Origin: Vulcanimicrobiota bacterium
GTDB taxonomy: Bacteria > Vulcanimicrobiota > JAJTBE01
Reading direction: 5' to 3'
Length of the DNA stretch: 41,458 bases
NCBI GenBank assembly: GCA_021107945.1
Contig: JAIORV010000178.1
Coordinates: 1 to 41,458, forward strand
The notes beneath the pieces are model-generated. The model saw nothing but the letters and a program-made list of their open reading frames with translations. It had not been told where the DNA came from and ran no database searches. The position numbers and the translations under genes are program-made. The first letter of the stretch is position 1; each line of letters opens with the position of its first letter. Of this stretch, positions 8,214 to 41,458 are shown in pieces.

Positions 8214-8220
8214 TTTTTAC

Positions 8221-8278
8221 AATTATTCACTCCACAATTTGGGTGGCGGCTGGTCTCCTGACTAGCCGAAAAGGCATA
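8221..8278 (+). repeat. diverged copy of the 67-bp hairpin element (copy 1)
   Basis: Begins 8 bp after the HD-GYP stop. It shares the start AATTATTCA, the block ATTTGGGT.GCGG and the end GGCATA with the other two copies. Its 8-bp stem is GGCTGGTC/GACTAGCC with loop TCCT. Relative to the copy in addA (GGCGGGTC/GACCCGCC), one stem pair has changed G-C to T-A on both arms and another has become G-T. This supports selection on or inheritance of the structure. Confidence 0.75.
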
Positions 8279-8307
8279 AGATTTAGATGTAACAATTCCT
8301 ATCACTA

Positions 8308-8390
8308 TGTAGGAGAGGCTTCCAGCCTCGATTGTAAACTGTAGCCTCGATTTAAGTGGCAGGATGCGCTCTTGCGAAGGGGAAACTGAA
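8308..8390 (+). repeat. TGTAGGAGAGGCTTC dispersed repeat, copy 1
   Basis: Shares TGTAGGAGAGGCTTC, then CCTCGA, AAGTGGCA.GATGC and the end GGAACTGAA-like block with the copy at 11735. A hairpin GAGGCT/AGCCTC lies inside. This copy has an extra internal duplication of GTAGCCTCGATT-like sequence. The two copies flank addB. Confidence 0.75.
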
Positions 8391-8414: not shown

Positions 8415-11400
8415 ATGAACATTAATAATATGGAACAACTTCAACTGCCTTTTATAGAAGAATTTGGGAGAAAGGTAATTAAATATGGGATTGTCTATCC
8501 AGATCTTGAAAGGGCGCTTCTTGAGGATGTTAAAGAAAATTTGGATGAAGATGCTTTCAAGCCTGTAATAATTGTGGTTCCGTCAAGTCTCCTCGGAGCA
8601 TACCTGAGCTTGAAAATCCGCGGGGGAGGAGTCTATTTTTATAATTTCAGGCAAATTGCGGAAAGAGTATCGGGCGGTTACTTTCTTGAGAAGGAGATGT
8701 CTCCCGTACCTTTTCAGGGTGAAGAAACACTTGCAAGACAGGCGATAGAAAGAATTATAAGACCGGAGAATCCTTTTTACAGGTACTCGAAAAACCAGGG
8801 ATTTCTGACAGTTTTCATGTCACTTTTAAAAGATTTCAGACAGGGAAATTTTGACAGTTTCCCTGATATTCCGGGGTTGGTCAACAGGATTCAGGTTGAA
8901 TGCGCCAGGACAGGTGAAAAGATTGACCCCGTGCGTCTTGATATTGTTTTCAACCTGCTTCAGGAGTTTAGAAAGGGCTTCAGGCGAAAATATTTCGATA
9001 TAGAAGACTCAATTATACAGGCATCAAAGTCCGCCTCCTCATTCAGGAAAACTATGAATACAAATCGCCTTATTCTATATGGTTTTTATGATTATGATGA
9101 GGCGCAGAAAAAACTTATCGGTGAGTTGGCAAAATACATAAATATAACGGTCTTTTTGCCATATCGCAAACAAAATAAGATATCCATTCAAAATCTGGAT
9201 TGGTTTATAAATCGCAGCTTTTCATTGAAACATATAAGAATAAAAGCTAGGGATGAAAATTCAAGTGACCTCGACAGGTTGAAATCTCGTTTCTTTTATG
9301 ATGAAAAGATTAACGGTGAATGTAAGAAGGACAACTCTGTAGGCATTATTTCCTGCCCCGATCATTATGCCGAGGCAAGAGAAATCTCAAGGAAAATACT
9401 GCAGCTTGCCAGGGAAGACAATATCCCGTTCGAACAAATGGCAATATTTCTTCAAAAACCCGGGAAATACGGAAAAATCTTCAGAGAGGTTTTTGACTCG
9501 ATACAGATACCCTGCTATTATCACGAGGGCTATCCTCCGGATGTTACACCGGAGGGAAAATCTCTGAAGCTTCTTCTTAATCTCATCAAAAGCGGTCTCC
9601 CTCGATTTGAGGTAATGGAGCTTGTTACAATGGGATTGATAAATTTTGAGGAACTATTTCCCGATACTAGTCCGCCCGTTCCTGCCGTCTGGGATAGGAT
9701 AAGCAGGAAAGCCGGCATAAAGGAAGACCCGGAGAATTGGGCAAGGAAATTGAAACGATATAGGTCCGGACTCGAGAGGAAATTGTCCGGGGCGGAAGAT
9801 CAATCGGAGCGGGAAAAGATACAGCTGGAGATGAGCGAGGCACAGAGATTGGTTGAGTTTATCAATATGCTGAACCACGACCTCGGCGAATTCCCCGGGC
9901 GCAACTCCTGGACAGGCTTCACAGAGAAGCTTATATCTCTTTTCAGAAAATATATCCGTGAAGAGAAACAAACACAGAATATCGTCGGGATCATCGAAAG
10001 ACTCAATGAGCTTGATGATTTGCAGGAGATTGTTGATATTGAGGATTTCAGGTCAAGTGTCAGAAACCTCCTTGAGTCAAACCTTCTGCACCCGGGCAGG
10101 TTTATGAAGGGCTGTGTGCATATATTCAATTTTCGCGCAGCCCCGGGAATGACTTTTGATGCAATATTCATTCCCGGATTGGTGGCGGGGGAGATTCCAT
10201 CCCCACCGGAAGAAAACCCACTTCTGCTTGATCGTGAAAAAGAGATTTTTAATGAAATTTTCGATTGGGAAGGCAGACTCCCGCTGAAAAGCAGGCTTGT
10301 TGATGAAGAACCCATTCTGCTTAATATGCTTGTAGGCTGTTGTAAGAAAAAGCTAATCTTCACATTCCCCCGGACGGCGCAGGGCAAAAATGCTTCTAAT
10401 GTGCCGTCTCCGTATATTCTGGAAATCGGAAAAGCTTTGTTGAATAAGGATGTTTTTTACAGGGACATTGATAATATCCCCGGTTTCGTTTCTATCCCCA
10501 GAAGATTCCACAGGATATTCGAGCAGGGGCTATTTCTTGATACCGGTGAATATTTCCAGGGTGAAATATCAAGGGCAAAGGAAAAGAACGATTTTACTGT
10601 TATACAGGCACTTGAAAAATCATCCGACAGGTTTTCCTCGGCAATGGAATTTTACAAAAACAGGAATTACTCCAATGATTTCACACGGTATGACGGGAGA
10701 ATATTGACCCCCGATATTCTTCAGAATCTCGATAAATGGTTGAAAGAGAATGTCGCCACCGCATCACCCACTTATATTGAAACTTACTACAAGTGTCCGT
10801 ATAAATTTTTCCTGTCCAGAATAATTGGTTTAAGAAGTCTGTCTGCTCCAGAGGAGATAAAAGTGATTTCCGGGCTTGACAGAGGCAATATCTATCATGA
10901 TATTTTTTACCGATTCTATAAAAAGCTGAGGGACAGCGGACTTGTACCCCTTGATGAGGATCGGCGGGATAAATATATTTCCATAATAAGGGATATTACA
11001 CAAAAAACTATAGAGGAGGCTCTGGATTCAGGACTCACCGGCTCCTGCCTGTCCTGGTTCGAGGAGATGGTTAACATTAGGGACAGCATGACAAAGTTCG
11101 TGGACGAGGAAATTGCCGGTAACGAGGGCATTCCCACATATTTTGAATTCGGCTTCGGCAGGCGAAAAAAATCCGGTTCTGATTCTGTTGGAATCGAAAA
11201 TCCTGTCGCAATTGAACTTGAAAATGGTGTGAAATTCAACTATTATGGCAGAATTGACCGTGTTGACATTGACGAGGAAAAGGGAATATGCACGGTAATC
11301 GATTATAAATCAGGGAAGGCGAAACATTACAAGCCTGACACATTGAGGGGAGGCGAGCAGCTTCAACTCCCCATGTATCTCATCTCCTTAAAAGAGATTT

Positions 11401-11711
11401 TGCCGGCGGTCAGCGATCATATAAACAGCAAGGCGTTATACTACTTTGCCACGAATGGGGGCGATTTCAAAAAAGTTGAATTCACAGGTGTAACTCTTGC
11501 TGAAAAGGAAAATGAGATAAAGATATTAATATCTGAAATGCTCAGGGGAGTCTATGACGGAATCTTTATTCCCAATCCAGGGAAAAACTGTGAAAATTGC
11601 AGAATATGCGATTTCAACACAATATGCCCCGTGGATATAGGTAAAGTTTTTTTGAAGAAATGCAACGATCCTGATATAAAATGGTTTCTTGAATTGAAGG
11701 AAATGGAATAG
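8415..11711 (+). CDS. addB: AddB-like helicase-nuclease subunit
   Basis: A 1098-residue protein of the AddB/RexB type, partner of the AddA encoded downstream. Known AddAB complexes resect double-strand breaks for RecA. The C-terminal PD-(D/E)xK nuclease shows D948 (GRIDRVD), VIDYKSGK (D963, K965) and GGEQLQLPMYL. The iron-sulfur staple is present: C794 (YKCPYKF) with C1062, C1065 and C1071 (plus C1059) in CENCRICDFNTICP, matching the family's C...CxxCxxxxxC spacing. The N-terminal region reads VVPSSLLGAYL where a Walker A would sit, so ATP binding by this subunit is doubtful. It starts at ATG 8415 with only a weak ribosome binding site (AGAAAG). Repeats flank it on both sides, and addA follows after an unusually long 620-bp gap. 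Confidence 0.9.
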   Translation: MNINNMEQLQLPFIEEFGRKVIKYGIVYPDLERALLEDVKENLDEDAFKPVIIVVPSSLLGAYLSLKIRGGGVYFYNFRQIAERVSGGYFLEKEMSPVPFQGEETLARQAIERIIRPENPFYRYSKNQGFLTVFMSLLKDFRQGNFDSFPDIPGLVNRIQVECARTGEKIDPVRLDIVFNLLQEFRKGFRRKYFDIEDSIIQASKSASSFRKTMNTNRLILYGFYDYDEAQKKLIGELAKYINITVFLPYRKQNKISIQNLDWFINRSFSLKHIRIKARDENSSDLDRLKSRFFYDEKINGECKKDNSVGIISCPDHYAEAREISRKILQLAREDNIPFEQMAIFLQKPGKYGKIFREVFDSIQIPCYYHEGYPPDVTPEGKSLKLLLNLIKSGLPRFEVMELVTMGLINFEELFPDTSPPVPAVWDRISRKAGIKEDPENWARKLKRYRSGLERKLSGAEDQSEREKIQLEMSEAQRLVEFINMLNHDLGEFPGRNSWTGFTEKLISLFRKYIREEKQTQNIVGIIERLNELDDLQEIVDIEDFRSSVRNLLESNLLHPGRFMKGCVHIFNFRAAPGMTFDAIFIPGLVAGEIPSPPEENPLLLDREKEIFNEIFDWEGRLPLKSRLVDEEPILLNMLVGCCKKKLIFTFPRTAQGKNASNVPSPYILEIGKALLNKDVFYRDIDNIPGFVSIPRRFHRIFEQGLFLDTGEYFQGEISRAKEKNDFTVIQALEKSSDRFSSAMEFYKNRNYSNDFTRYDGRILTPDILQNLDKWLKENVATASPTYIETYYKCPYKFFLSRIIGLRSLSAPEEIKVISGLDRGNIYHDIFYRFYKKLRDSGLVPLDEDRRDKYISIIRDITQKTIEEALDSGLTGSCLSWFEEMVNIRDSMTKFVDEEIAGNEGIPTYFEFGFGRRKKSGSDSVGIENPVAIELENGVKFNYYGRIDRVDIDEEKGICTVIDYKSGKAKHYKPDTLRGGEQLQLPMYLISLKEILPAVSDHINSKALYYFATNGGDFKKVEFTGVTLAEKENEIKILISEMLRGVYDGIFIPNPGKNCENCRICDFNTICPVDIGKVFLKKCNDPDIKWFLELKEME

Positions 11712-11847: not shown

Positions 11848-12106
11848 ACATTTTGCGATGTGAATTTGTTGAGAAATAATAGAAGAAATTTCAGGTGCCT
11901 TAAGGTGATAACAGGTATTTTAAGGCGTTTAAGACAACACCACAATTTATTGTGGTGAAATGAGCGTAAATCCCACCACTACAGCGTCCTAACCACTTCA
12001 GTGGTTTCTCTCATCAAGAAACCGTTGAAACGGTTAAATTGGAAGTGAGAGGTGAGAGGTAGGTTTTATAGGCTTTTATCCACCAGATTAAAATCTGGTG
12101 TTGTCT
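11848..12106 (+). repeat. four-hairpin composite repeat, copy A
   Basis: About 260 bp, closely matching 41148-41419. It carries four perfect short hairpins with 2-nt loops: CACCACAAT/ATTGTGGTG (11938-11957), AACCACT/AGTGGTT (11991-12006), AACCGTT/AACGGTT (12020-12035) and CACCAGATT/AATCTGGTG (12081-12100). In the other copy the last stem reads CACCCGATT/AATCGGGTG, a compensatory A-T to C-G change. There is no open reading frame. It may be a REP/BIME-like or structured-RNA repeat. Confidence 0.85.
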
Positions 12107-12127
12107 TAAAAACTCGAAAAGCTTATG

Positions 12128-12194
12128 AATATGCCGTTTCCCGACGGGTCGGGAGACCCGCCGCTACCCAAATAAGGGGCTGGTCTGAATAATT
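12128..12194 (-). repeat. 67-bp hairpin element (copy 2, intergenic)
   Basis: The reverse complement of this stretch matches 14952-15018 inside addA at 63 of 67 positions without gaps. The stem is near-perfect (GGCGGGTC/GACCCGTC in the same orientation). It is noncoding here. Confidence 0.9.
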
Positions 12195-12331
12195 GCGGTA
12201 AAAAAATCAATTGCATTTTTAGCAAATTGAGTGACCTGATTAAAAGATGTCAGGTGTGCGAAATCTAAGAAATAAATCTTTCTTAATAGAACAGAAAGGT
12301 TTTATTTTAAAAATAATTAACAGGACTTATT

Positions 12332-15300
12332 GTGGCGGATTTAACTGATAAAAAACAAAGAGATCTTGCAAGTGGCGATATATCCGTAACTTATATTATT
12401 GAGGCGGGCGCGGGAACGGGCAAGACAACTATTCTCGTAAAACGATTCCTGAAGCTTATAATGACAGGATCGGCAAAAATCGATGAGATTGTTTCCATCA
12501 CTTTTACAGAAAAAGCCGCCGCCGAGATGCTCACGAGAGTACGGGATAACCTTGAGGAAATCTGCCATGGCAAAAGTGGATTGGCGATTAAAGCACACTG
12601 CAGAGATGCTCTTGACAACTTCAGCCTTAATCGGATTTCCACAATTCATGGCTTCGCCGGGAACTTGTTGAGGGAGAAGCCTTTCGAGGCGGAAGTCGAT
12701 CCATTTTTCGAAATTAATGACCCCAGAGGTCATGACATATTTAACCGGGTGTGGGAGGAGTGGATTGAAAAGGAGTTAGGTCTGACTGATAGCCCCATCA
12801 GGTATGTTGTGGAGATGGGTGTAAAACATGCGACAATTACAGCGTATGTTAAATTTGTATATCAAAACAGGGATTTTTTCACGGATTACATTCCTCTTGA
12901 GATCGAATATAATATTGATGAATTTATAGGATTGTTGAAAAGAACAGGGCGAATATTAAAAGATATAATGGATAATCATTGTAGCAATTATGATGATAAA
13001 GGCAAAAAAGAGATAGAAAAATTCCTTGCCCTGATAAAGGCTATTGATCGCGGCACACCTCGTGAAATAGAAAGATTACTTCTTAATATAGGCGGTTTCA
13101 AGGCAAAGGGCAGTAAAAGCAATTACATACCCGGGGATAAATGTACCGAGCAAAAAAAAGTATTTAAAGATCTTAATGTTGAGTTAAATATTATCAAGAA
13201 TATTATATCACAAAAGATTATCGGCGGTTGTTTGAACAGGATAAAGGAATTCATCAAGCTGGTTGAATCTGAAAAATTTCGACACGGAGTATTGGATTTC
13301 CGGGATTTATTGGTAAAAGCTCGATTCCTTCTCAGAGACAACATCAACACAAGGCGTTATTATCAGAGAAAATTCAGGTATATCCTTGTCGATGAATTCC
13401 AGGACACCGATCCCCTTCAGGCGGAGATTGTGTTTTTCCTGTCCGGGGGGATTGGGCAAAAAATCGAAGGTCAGGTCAGGGAAGCTGAGCCTGTTTCGAA
13501 TTGGGAAGAATGTGGAATAAAACCTGGGAAGCTTTTTATCGTGGGGGATCCAAAACAATCGATCTATCGTTTCAGAAGAGCGGATATTGAAATTTATGAG
13601 AAAGTAAAAGAAATCCTGAAACGGGGTGGGGGAGAGTCGCTGAATATCAGTGTCAACTTCAGGTCACTTCGTCCCGTCGTTGAATTTGTGAATAAGCATT
13701 TCAGCAAGGTTATAAAGAAGCCTTCTGAAGGAAATTATCAACCCGAATATGTTTCGTTGTCGCCGTTCCGTGAGGAAAACGAGAACATTCCATCCCTCGT
13801 GTTGTTGAACCCTGATGACAAACTTCAGGAAACAATGATATATTCTTATGACGTCAGACTTGCGGAGGCCGGGATGGTCGCGGAATATATTGACTATCTC
13901 GTGAATGAAAGCGGAATAAAAATAGGGGGAAGAAGTGGTAATAACCGCCCCATAAGATATAAGGATATAGCTATGCTTTTTCCGCGAACATCGGACATTG
14001 ATATTTACGAGTCGGCTTTGTCGGCGAGAGGAATCCCGTATGTTCTGGAAGCGGGGAATCTATTTTTCAAAAGACAGGAGATATCGGACCTGATAATAAT
14101 TTTGAAGGCAATCGACAATCCCCTTGATGAGGTTGCGGTTTTGTCAGTCTTGAAATCTCCCCTGGCAGGTGTATCCGATGAGGAGATATTGCAAGCTTCC
14201 ATTAACGGAGTGAGTTTCAACTACCTTGAGGTCACGTCCGATTCATCTCCTGATATCCGTAAGATATTCAATGAGTTGCGATTTTTTCATAAACATCGCG
14301 GCGAGGTAAGCATATCAATACTTATAGAGATGATTCTGGATTGGAGCAGATATAGGGAATTCCATATAGTTACATCTGCCGACAGGCGGCCCGAGGCAAA
14401 CATCGAGAAATTCATGGGAATTGCCAGGGAGTATGAAGAAGCTCACAGGGGGACGCTCAGGGGTTTTATAGGCGAAATGAGTGAAAAATTAAAGGAGAAG
14501 GAAGCGGAGCCTGATGCGCCGTTGGCGGAATCCGATGACGATGCCGTGCTTTTAATCACCGCTCATAAGTCAAAGGGGTTGGAATTTCCCGTTGTCATTC
14601 CGGTGAATCTCATGACGCAAAAGCCTTCACCGAAAACCGGTCAATATTTCATAGATCGTGAAACACATACATTCGAAGCCAGGATGAACCCCCTGGAAAC
14701 GCCGGGATTCGAGGATTTGAGAATAATCGAAGACATGCGCCTTACCGCCGAGGAAATCAGACTTTTATATGTAGCTTGCACCCGGGCTATTGATATGCTT
14801 GTTATTCCGCGGGCGCTTCTGAAAAAGAAGGAAGAATTACAATGCCAAAATATGCAGTCCCATATGAGCGGCCTATTTCTTTTTGAAAACCCGGAATTAC
14901 AGGATATGTTTCATGTTGTGGAATATGGCGCCGATATAATTGTTGTTGAGCAATTATTCAGACCAGCCCCCCATTTGGGTAGCGGCGGGTCTCCCGACCC
15001 GCCGGGAAACAGCATATTTACCTCCGACCTGGAAAGATGGAAGGATGAACGGCAGAAGCTTATAGAGCAAGCTTCCCGGACGGAATATATTTCCAGTTAT
15101 TCCACTGAAAAGACGCGGAAGGAAGATGTTGAAGAGACCGATGAGACCGCTGAGTTTGAAGATACAACCGGCATGAGAATCGGCAGGGCATACCATCGTG
15201 TTATGGAGAGAATTGATTTTGAATCTCCCGTTGACCTGAAAAATCTTTCGATTGCGGAATCAACACGGGAGAATGTATCGGGGCTTGCCCATGTCGTGGA

Positions 15301-15631
15301 GAAACTGGCAGGGAATACCCTGAAATCTGATTTAATTAAAACCGCTATAAAATCAGGTAACTACAGAAAGGAATTTCCTTTCACGGTCGAGCTTGACGGA
15401 ACCGTAACAAGAGGATTCATAGACCTGGTTATAAAAACAAACGACGGTTTTATCGTTATTGACTATAAATCGGATGATGTTACACCGAATAAGATACCGG
15501 ATCATGTGAAGAATGAATATTCCATGCAGATAGACATATACGGGGAAGCAATGAAAAAAATTACCGGCGGTTCAGTGGATTCAATATATTACTATTTTGC
15601 CACCCCCGGAATTGCGTATAAAGTTAAATAA
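12332..15631 (+). CDS. addA: AddA-like UvrD-family helicase-nuclease
   Basis: A 1099-residue protein. Helicase motifs: Walker A EAGAGTGKTT (24-33), motif II VDEFQDTDPLQAE (from about 353), VGDPKQSIYRFRRAD, and ITAHKSKGLEFPVVIP. The C-terminal RecB-type nuclease carries VIDYKSDD (D1044, K1046). It is the ATP-driven partner of the AddB-like protein upstream in double-strand break processing. The GTG start has AGGA six bases upstream. Residues about 874-896 (containing RPAPHLGSGGSPDPPGNS) are encoded by a repeat that is noncoding elsewhere. This Gly/Pro-rich piece sits between helicase and nuclease domains and looks like a tolerated insertion. Gene order addB-addA is normal for the family, but the wide gap is not. 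Confidence 0.93.
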   Translation: MADLTDKKQRDLASGDISVTYIIEAGAGTGKTTILVKRFLKLIMTGSAKIDEIVSITFTEKAAAEMLTRVRDNLEEICHGKSGLAIKAHCRDALDNFSLNRISTIHGFAGNLLREKPFEAEVDPFFEINDPRGHDIFNRVWEEWIEKELGLTDSPIRYVVEMGVKHATITAYVKFVYQNRDFFTDYIPLEIEYNIDEFIGLLKRTGRILKDIMDNHCSNYDDKGKKEIEKFLALIKAIDRGTPREIERLLLNIGGFKAKGSKSNYIPGDKCTEQKKVFKDLNVELNIIKNIISQKIIGGCLNRIKEFIKLVESEKFRHGVLDFRDLLVKARFLLRDNINTRRYYQRKFRYILVDEFQDTDPLQAEIVFFLSGGIGQKIEGQVREAEPVSNWEECGIKPGKLFIVGDPKQSIYRFRRADIEIYEKVKEILKRGGGESLNISVNFRSLRPVVEFVNKHFSKVIKKPSEGNYQPEYVSLSPFREENENIPSLVLLNPDDKLQETMIYSYDVRLAEAGMVAEYIDYLVNESGIKIGGRSGNNRPIRYKDIAMLFPRTSDIDIYESALSARGIPYVLEAGNLFFKRQEISDLIIILKAIDNPLDEVAVLSVLKSPLAGVSDEEILQASINGVSFNYLEVTSDSSPDIRKIFNELRFFHKHRGEVSISILIEMILDWSRYREFHIVTSADRRPEANIEKFMGIAREYEEAHRGTLRGFIGEMSEKLKEKEAEPDAPLAESDDDAVLLITAHKSKGLEFPVVIPVNLMTQKPSPKTGQYFIDRETHTFEARMNPLETPGFEDLRIIEDMRLTAEEIRLLYVACTRAIDMLVIPRALLKKKEELQCQNMQSHMSGLFLFENPELQDMFHVVEYGADIIVVEQLFRPAPHLGSGGSPDPPGNSIFTSDLERWKDERQKLIEQASRTEYISSYSTEKTRKEDVEETDETAEFEDTTGMRIGRAYHRVMERIDFESPVDLKNLSIAESTRENVSGLAHVVEKLAGNTLKSDLIKTAIKSGNYRKEFPFTVELDGTVTRGFIDLVIKTNDGFIVIDYKSDDVTPNKIPDHVKNEYSMQIDIYGEAMKKITGGSVDSIYYYFATPGIAYKVK
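14952..15018 (+). repeat. 67-bp hairpin element inside addA (copy 3)
   Basis: In-frame copy of the intergenic hairpin element, 63/67 identical to the reverse complement of 12128-12194. It has a perfect 8-bp stem GGCGGGTC/GACCCGCC with loop TCCC. It encodes about 22 residues in AddA, in a non-conserved linker. This is comparable in behaviour to palindromic elements known inside Rickettsia genes; homology to those is not claimed. Confidence 0.9.
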
Positions 15632-15649
15632 TGAGATTAAGCTACCATT

Positions 15650-15680
15650 CAACGCAGAGTTCGCGGAGGCCGCAGAGGAT
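15650..15680 (+). repeat. CGCAGAG dispersed motif
   Basis: The stretch reads AACGCAGAGTTCGCGGAGG followed by CCGCAGAGGAT. It resembles the motifs at 29248-29274 (+) and 30421-30450 (-), with a fragment at 24541-24554. Sequences of this type are widespread intergenic repeats in uncultivated bacteria. No function is known to me. Confidence 0.55.
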
Positions 15681-24540: not shown

Positions 24541-24597
24541 TATTCACCACAGAGGAAATGGTATCATTATCAGATTTCGAAACAAGTTCGGAATGAT
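24541..24597. repeat. two dispersed-motif fragments after aroF
   Basis: TATTCACCACAGAGG (24541-24555) matches the CGCAGAG family. The stretch at 24574-24597 (TTTCGAAACAAGTTCGGAATGA) is the reverse complement of the CATTCCGAACTTGTTTCG motif also seen near 28403. Confidence 0.5.
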
Positions 24598-28402: not shown

Positions 28403-28498
28403 AGTCATCCCGAACTTGTTTCGGGATCCGAAATATGGCTTGAACATTAGATCCTGAAACCCTGAAACAAGTTCAGGGCAGGCGAGTTCAGAATGACT
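28403..28498. mobile_element. 96-bp MITE-like element
   Basis: The ends AGTCATCCCGAACT (28403-28416) and AGTTCAGAATGACT (28485-28498) are inverted repeats matching at 12/14. Each end also forms its own hairpin (CCCGAA/TTCGGG and CCCTGAA/TTCAGGG). The termini resemble those of the 223-bp element at 22347. It has no coding capacity. Confidence 0.65.
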
Positions 28499-30221: not shown

Positions 30222-30420
30222 AAACGCACCTCCGGTTAAGTATTGATGACATTTTTTTCACCACAAAAACCACAAATGCCAAAAAGAATTTTCTTTGCGT
30301 TTTTTGCTTCTTTGTGGTCATTCTAATTCCTCTTTACAATGTTTAAGGGGATAAGACAATTTTCTACCCAAATATCACAGAGCTAATAATGAGCAAAGTG
30401 TTGACTTCAATTAAAACTCC

Positions 30421-30450
30421 GGGTCCTCTGCGAACTCTGTGGTGAATAAT
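30421..30450 (-). repeat. CGCAGAG dispersed motif
   Basis: On the minus strand it reads ATTATTCACCACAGAGTTCG followed by CAGAGGACCC. This is the fullest copy of the motif in this window. Confidence 0.55.
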
Positions 30451-41118: not shown

Positions 41119-41458
41119 TATTTCAAATTACATTTTTTAAGTACTCACATTTCGCATATATGAATTCGTTAAGAAATAATAGAGTTATTTTCAAGTGATT
41201 TAAGGTAATAACAGGTGGTTTAGGGTAATAACAGGTGGCTTAAGGCGTTTAAGACAGCACCACAATTTATTGTGGTGAATTGAGCGCAAACCCCACCACT
41301 ACAGCGTCCTAACCACTTCAGTGGTTTATCTCATCGAGAAACCGTTGAAACGGTTAAATTGGAGGTGGGAGGTAGGTTTTATAGGCTTCTAACCACCCGA
41401 TTAAAATCGGGTGTTGTCTGTTCGCCCGGCATGTTTGCTGAGCCGGTGGATTGAAAGA
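41119..41458. other. noncoding end of window, mostly composite repeat
   Basis: No gene is supported in the last 340 bp. About 270 bp is the second copy of the four-hairpin element, followed by 39 bp containing CCCGGC...GCCGG-type sequence. Confidence 0.65.
41148..41419 (+). repeat. four-hairpin composite repeat, copy B
   Basis: Matches 11848-12106 over its whole length, in the same orientation, with all four hairpins kept. It is longer because a 20-bp unit (TTAAGGTAATAACAGGTGGT) is present twice in tandem, against once in copy A. The fourth stem differs by a compensatory pair (CACCCGATT/AATCGGGTG). Confidence 0.85.

Follow-up and report, generated by a model that had tools for sequence, protein, structure and literature searches.

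Results

The addAB locus and the repeat copy within addA

The window, by which we mean the whole 41,458-nucleotide stretch of DNA that was analysed, carries an addB-like gene, an addA-like gene and three copies of a repeat (Table 1). addA is a single intact ORF of 1099 aa, and its product has UvrD helicase domains (residues 17-825) and a PD-(D/E)XK nuclease domain (residues 948-1089), with the repeat-encoded segment between them. In PADLOC, the AddA and AddB proteins matched nothing more specific than generic helicases and Cas4-like nucleases. An earlier note on this DNA had described a 67-bp sequence in addA that matches the intergenic stretch 12128-12194 in inverted orientation, supplies about 22 in-frame residues between the two domains, and has a third, diverged copy starting at 8221. 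All of these observations held. The inverted match amounts to 89% identity over 80 nt (12128-12207), or 94% over 69 nt by BLAST, and the third copy was detected both by the covariance model and by nhmmer (8221-8304, model positions 3-93, 41.7 bits, E 3e-11). Because the element starts at position 14950, the residues predicted to have been added to AddA are 874-895, QLFRPAPHLGSGGSPDPPGNSI, which are translated from the element and the completing base 15016.

Table 1. Genes and repeat copies in the window, and repeat copies read in frame within genes
Feature	Position in window	Strand	Length	Reading	Basis
Third MITE copy, diverged, upstream of addB	8219..8321	+			Covariance model, E 2.4e-5
addB-like gene (PD-(D/E)XK nuclease, ADDB_N)	8415..11711	+			Pfam, NCBIfam
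Intergenic MITE copy between addB and addA, left 67 bp	12130..12196	-			nhmmer, 65.9 bits
addA-like helicase-nuclease gene with insert	12332..15631	+			Pfam, NCBIfam
MITE copy in addA, left 66 bp (model positions 1-66)	14950..15015	+	66 nt	Sense, in frame	nhmmer, 63.3 bits
GTAG tag preceding the hairpin, addA copy	14979..14982	+			Sequence; GT(A/G)G conserved among copies
Hairpin CGGCGGGTC-TCCC-GACCCGCCG, addA copy	14983..15004	+			Sequence; family stem covariation
MITE copy in MOFRL/DUF4147 glycerate kinase gene (L019)			99 nt	Sense, in frame
MITE copy in YfhO membrane protein gene (L020)			103 nt	Sense, in frame
MITE copy in methyltransferase-like protein gene (L007)			Complete copy	Sense, in frame

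The same note had proposed that an alignment of AddA with related proteins could reveal whether these residues are a lineage-specific insertion. In every one of the 15 phylum relatives that were compared, residues ~835-940 correspond to a linker of hypervariable sequence, so that the alignment is uninformative on an insertion there; residues 874-895 do lie in variable sequence, and the empty state is not visible. What decides the matter is the identity between copies. Over 68 nt, the addA copy and one on contig C87 agree at 97% of positions (BLAST), and this identity, together with that to the intergenic copy, proves at the level of sequence that the addA segment is mobile DNA. The copy has no right end and stops at model position 66, which is exactly 22 codons and suggests that the right half was lost without disturbing the frame. 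The 22 predicted residues are probably a neutral extension of the linker.

The two good window copies are both left-hand fragments of the element described below. Each breaks at 66-67 (12130-12196 and 14950-15015) and their right flanks differ; a break near model position 66 is rare in other copies, although the copy at L009 likewise breaks at 66. Several other small repeats were seen in the window, in which Rfam had no match. A palindrome, GTAGGAGAGGCTTCCAGCCTCGAT, lies at 8304-8332, just after the third copy, and the same or a similar palindrome is found, reversed, in the right half of several copies elsewhere. A second repeat, ~250 bp long and with the inverted sequences TTTAAGACAACACCA ... 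TGGTGTTGTCTTAAA in its interior, occupies 11858-12110 and 41212-41419; the genome holds ~40 copies of it, several at contig ends and at least one (on contig C10) split by a copy of the element. Short inverted repeat pairs resembling CGCAGAGTTCGCGGAGG and TCATCCCGAACTTGTTTCGGGAT are located at 15647-15677, 30417-30447, 24570-24596 and 28405-28431.

The repeat is part of a 115-bp MITE with 8-bp target duplications

A first BLAST search of the bacterium's own genome, a draft of 5.56 Mb in 215 contigs in which assembly errors could hide, listed 40 copies. When these were aligned, conservation ran past the 67 bp that had been taken as the unit, and that part of the earlier description has to be replaced: the real unit is a MITE of 115 bp that carries a GTAG-tagged hairpin and 15-bp terminal inverted repeats, GTAATTATTCAGACC ... 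GGTCTGAATAnnTAC. The assembly contains at least 146 copies, a lower bound because the covariance model scored 150 of the 2812 first-look candidates. The end sequence GTANNTATTCAGACC, with at most one mismatch, gave 243 matches, as compared with 7 for a reversed-pattern control. Given these two results, a chance origin of the repeat is excluded.

Fifty-two copies are complete at both ends, and their modal length of 115 bp is exact in 25. The 8-bp sequences flanking these copies show an identity of 0.68, as compared with 0.35 when the flanks were shuffled (z 14.8). Perfect 8-bp duplications were seen in 15 of the 52, and no perfect duplication of 5-7 or 9-12 bp was found among them. These results show that the target-site duplication has a fixed length of 8 bp. 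An empty site was identified on contig C10, where a MITE copy splits one copy of the 250-bp repeat while other copies of that repeat are uninterrupted at this point. The flanks GAGTTTTA and GTGTTTTA agree with each other and with the empty-repeat sequence GTATTTTA at 6-7 of 8 positions. The MITE copy at this site bears a nested insert of its own (L132:2075-2349; contig C10:72974-73248), with ends GTGTTCGG and CCGAACAC and containing GTCATTGCGAG...CTCGCAATGAC; this insert is another small mobile family.

The stem of the hairpin is 9 bp long and is preceded by GT(A/G)G. Both partners of pair 34-55 have changed in 7 of 18 sequences, and so have both partners of pair 38-51, likewise in 7; pairing was lost in slid controls. 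This family-wide covariation agrees with the compensatory change already noticed in the third window copy, where the fifth pair is T-A instead of G-C and the next pair is a G-T wobble. The right half of the MITE often contains a second, weaker GTAG hairpin in the opposite orientation. Being short, multicopy and without a transposase inside, and having inverted ends and a duplication of fixed length, the family corresponds to the definition of a MITE.

Copies within genes

Copies in genes and in gaps were counted genome-wide, as the earlier note had suggested. Flanking sequence was available for 145 copies. Intergenic DNA holds 133 of them; of the remainder, 6 are within ORFs and 6 extend across the end of a gene. 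With a coding share of 76% in the DNA examined, the binomial probability of 12 or fewer genic copies is ~1e-67, where genes were called with a simple codon-usage script and not with a published gene finder. The MITE is, therefore, strongly depleted in genes, either by insertion preference or by selection. One copy, flanked by a perfect duplication of 8 bp, TATTTATG (L107:2041-2153), terminates a 177-aa ORF, the stop codon of which is the TAG of the MITE's GTAG tag.

Four copies, including that in addA, are in frame with a coding signal on both sides in a common strand and frame (Table 1). Their predicted peptides contain LGSGGSPDPPGN or close variants, and all four are read in the one frame of the MITE that is commonly open, which yields GSGGSPDPPGNG-like linkers. 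The copy in the methyltransferase-like gene, although complete, has no target duplication (2 of 8 positions match). A copy in a SpoIID protein gene is probably a fifth in-frame case, read antisense after a signal-peptide-like stretch. The sixth in-ORF copy, situated before a PGA_cap domain, was set aside as probably lying in an over-called N-terminus, the in-ORF copies at L131 and L104 as probable N-terminal over-extensions, and the ORFs with copies at L094, L026, L011 and L106 (125 aa) because they have no family support.

The glycerate kinase copy supplies clean evidence for insertion from protein alignment: 37 and 42 residues stand where the solved structures of the homologs 1x3l and 2b8n have 8 and 13, respectively, so that this protein is 29 residues longer here than either structure, and the phylum relatives show the same gap with no insert. 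This gene also bears on one possible hypothesis, namely, that the genes with in-frame copies are pseudogenes in decay, each such copy being an accidental step towards inactivation. The insert comes immediately after the conserved GTDGPTDAAGG motif, and the genome has a second DUF4147-type gene (C39:19558-20532), both of which would be in keeping with decay. However, each of the four ORFs continues past the element into sequence whose codon use resembles that of coding DNA, and AddA, YfhO and the glycerate kinase still have recognisable C-terminal domains. We think that decay is unlikely.

The mobilising enzyme

An 8-bp target duplication points to a DDE transposase. Another scenario is that the repeat is a GTAG-type REP that depends, like REPINs, on a RAYT, a Y1 transposase of the HUH type, for its movement. 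The GT(A/G)G tag directly before the palindrome, the frequent oppositely oriented second GTAG hairpin and the presence of 12 Y1_Tnp genes in the genome would all fit such a scenario. It is strongly disfavoured, however, by the 15-bp inverted ends and the 8-bp target duplications of the unit; Y1 transposases are not known to make such features. Moreover, the hairpin type of the MITE is essentially confined to the MITE, whereas the 12 RAYT loci carry either no hairpin or another one, and none has the MITE hairpin or paired ends. At two of them (L040 and L042) the RAYT genes are accompanied by a different GTAG hairpin, GTAGCGCGGGTTTTTAAACCCGC, which likely constitutes a REP family of its own. A RAYT origin of the MITE is, in our opinion, very improbable.

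No transposase was found between matching MITE ends in the 596 kb examined. A longer copy of 275 bp on C10, considered as a longer element with paired ends, is the MITE plus its nested insertion, and another of 390 bp on C18 contains extra repeat-like sequence without a transposase. The ends of the MITE frequently start with GTAA or GTAT; IS66 would fit GTAA ends and an 8-bp duplication. In the assembly, however, neither IS66 (PF03050) nor IS256 (PF00872) transposases gave a match. Repeats are frequently missing from draft assemblies, and an autonomous partner of a MITE is usual but not required.

Reading frame of the MITE

The unit and its duplication together add 115 + 8 = 123 nt, or 41 codons, so that a full insertion keeps the frame. 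Among 39 near-full copies, 16 have no stop anywhere in frame +2, whereas no other frame is free of stops in more than 4. The peptide of frame +2 is rich in Gly, Pro and Ser, a composition that would suit loops. In a uniform-mutation simulation, the intergenic copies showed an apparent excess of preserved +2 frames (19 as compared with 12.4 of 23). When the sequences were shuffled within alignment columns, 17.8 of 23 were expected against the same 19, and there was no excess among these copies; the claim of selection on the frame was dropped for this reason.

Two hypotheses invoke selection. The first holds that the peptide was recruited, with the insert altering AddA activity (for example, helicase-nuclease coupling) and being kept by selection. 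In its favour, the in-frame REPs described so far are concentrated in repair genes, recB among them, and mutator effects have been speculated upon (PMC3733652); recruitment is nevertheless very improbable, given that the insert lies in a linker variable among all relatives, that the identical frame is used in the unrelated glycerate kinase, YfhO and methyltransferase proteins, and that the open frame of intergenic copies is preserved no more than column composition predicts. The second, which we regard as just as doubtful, is that the MITE is shaped for genes, its 123 nt and single open linker-like frame GSGGSPDPPGNG having evolved or been kept because insertions thereby survive. If this were true, then the MITE would be a natural source of inter-domain linkers, AddA among others. 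Survival of the few tolerable insertions is enough to explain the observations.

Discussion

We consider it highly probable that addA carries a copy, truncated on the right, of the MITE, a non-autonomous DNA transposon specific to this lineage. Of 149 genomes of the phylum that were searched, the MITE family was found only in its own; the other 148 had no copy by this search. A collection of ~85,000 species was also scanned with an exact pattern for the left part of the MITE, and nothing matched; such a scan needs exact matches, and near relatives may be omitted from the collection.

One could envision the following course of events. A DDE-type transposase acting in trans would have moved the MITE, and the enzyme may since have been lost, or may be unassembled. 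Most copies would persist only in intergenic DNA. A copy entering a gene in a suitable frame would add exactly 41 codons, and its insertion could be tolerated in a loop or an inter-domain linker. In addA, the MITE would have landed in the variable linker between the helicase and nuclease domains, and the right half of the copy would then have been deleted with the frame kept, leaving 22 residues.

As read from the genes, this is an independent and well-resolved case outside Rickettsia of mobile DNA turning into protein sequence. It stands out for its clear 8-bp duplications, for the empty site and for the arithmetic of its frame. Because the ends, the duplication and the frame are all defined, there is a simple account of why insertions in genes can survive: the added length is an exact multiple of three, one frame is mostly free of stops, and the flexible Gly/Pro-rich peptide would fall in loops. 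The family also indicates that a GTAG-tagged hairpin, which is usually regarded as the mark of REPs mobilised by RAYTs, can also lie inside a MITE whose insertion duplicates the target.

The earlier note had likened the repeat, present both between genes and within proteins, to elements of Rickettsia. The dual location was confirmed, but the precedent is not limited to Rickettsia, since REPs (PMC3733652) and Coxiella MITEs (PMC5896051) behave similarly. According to the summary of Ogata 2000 and 2002 in PMC10969869, the Rickettsia palindromic elements (RPE) are mobile DNA that occurs in intergenic positions as well as in frame within proteins. As far as that summary goes, the two systems share a small palindromic mobile DNA, placement in intergenic regions and in unrelated proteins, and one compatible peptide frame; by the same source, nearly half of the RPE copies are in genes, whereas only ~4-6 of 145 are here. 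The MITE is further set apart, by description, by its demonstrated 15-bp inverted ends and 8-bp duplications and by its different bacterial lineage.

GTAG and CGTC REPs occur in frame in uvrA, uvrB, recB, polA and other genes (PMC3733652). Like these REPs, the MITE has GTAG-tagged hairpins that are mainly intergenic, with some in frame in DNA-repair genes, and the REPs often give a neighbouring ORF a TAG stop (PMC3733652), as does the MITE copy at L107. REPs are 20-40 bp long and are attributed to RAYTs (PMC3733652), whereas the hairpin described here is internal to a MITE with 8-bp duplications. Enterobacterial RU elements (PMC2759123) are likewise MITE-like repeats, of ~100-170 bp, with open frames and with copies in genes; the present family has a different host. 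Coxiella QMITE2 (150-190 bp) has 7-11 nt direct repeats, REP-like truncated copies and some in-frame insertions (PMC5896051). The present family resembles it in being a MITE with direct repeats, truncated copies and some in-frame insertions, and differs in its unrelated sequence, its shorter unit and the demonstration of insertion against relatives for one conserved gene, that of the glycerate kinase. Mobile palindromes within genes are, thus, already known, and it is the MITE family itself that is new among the collections searched.
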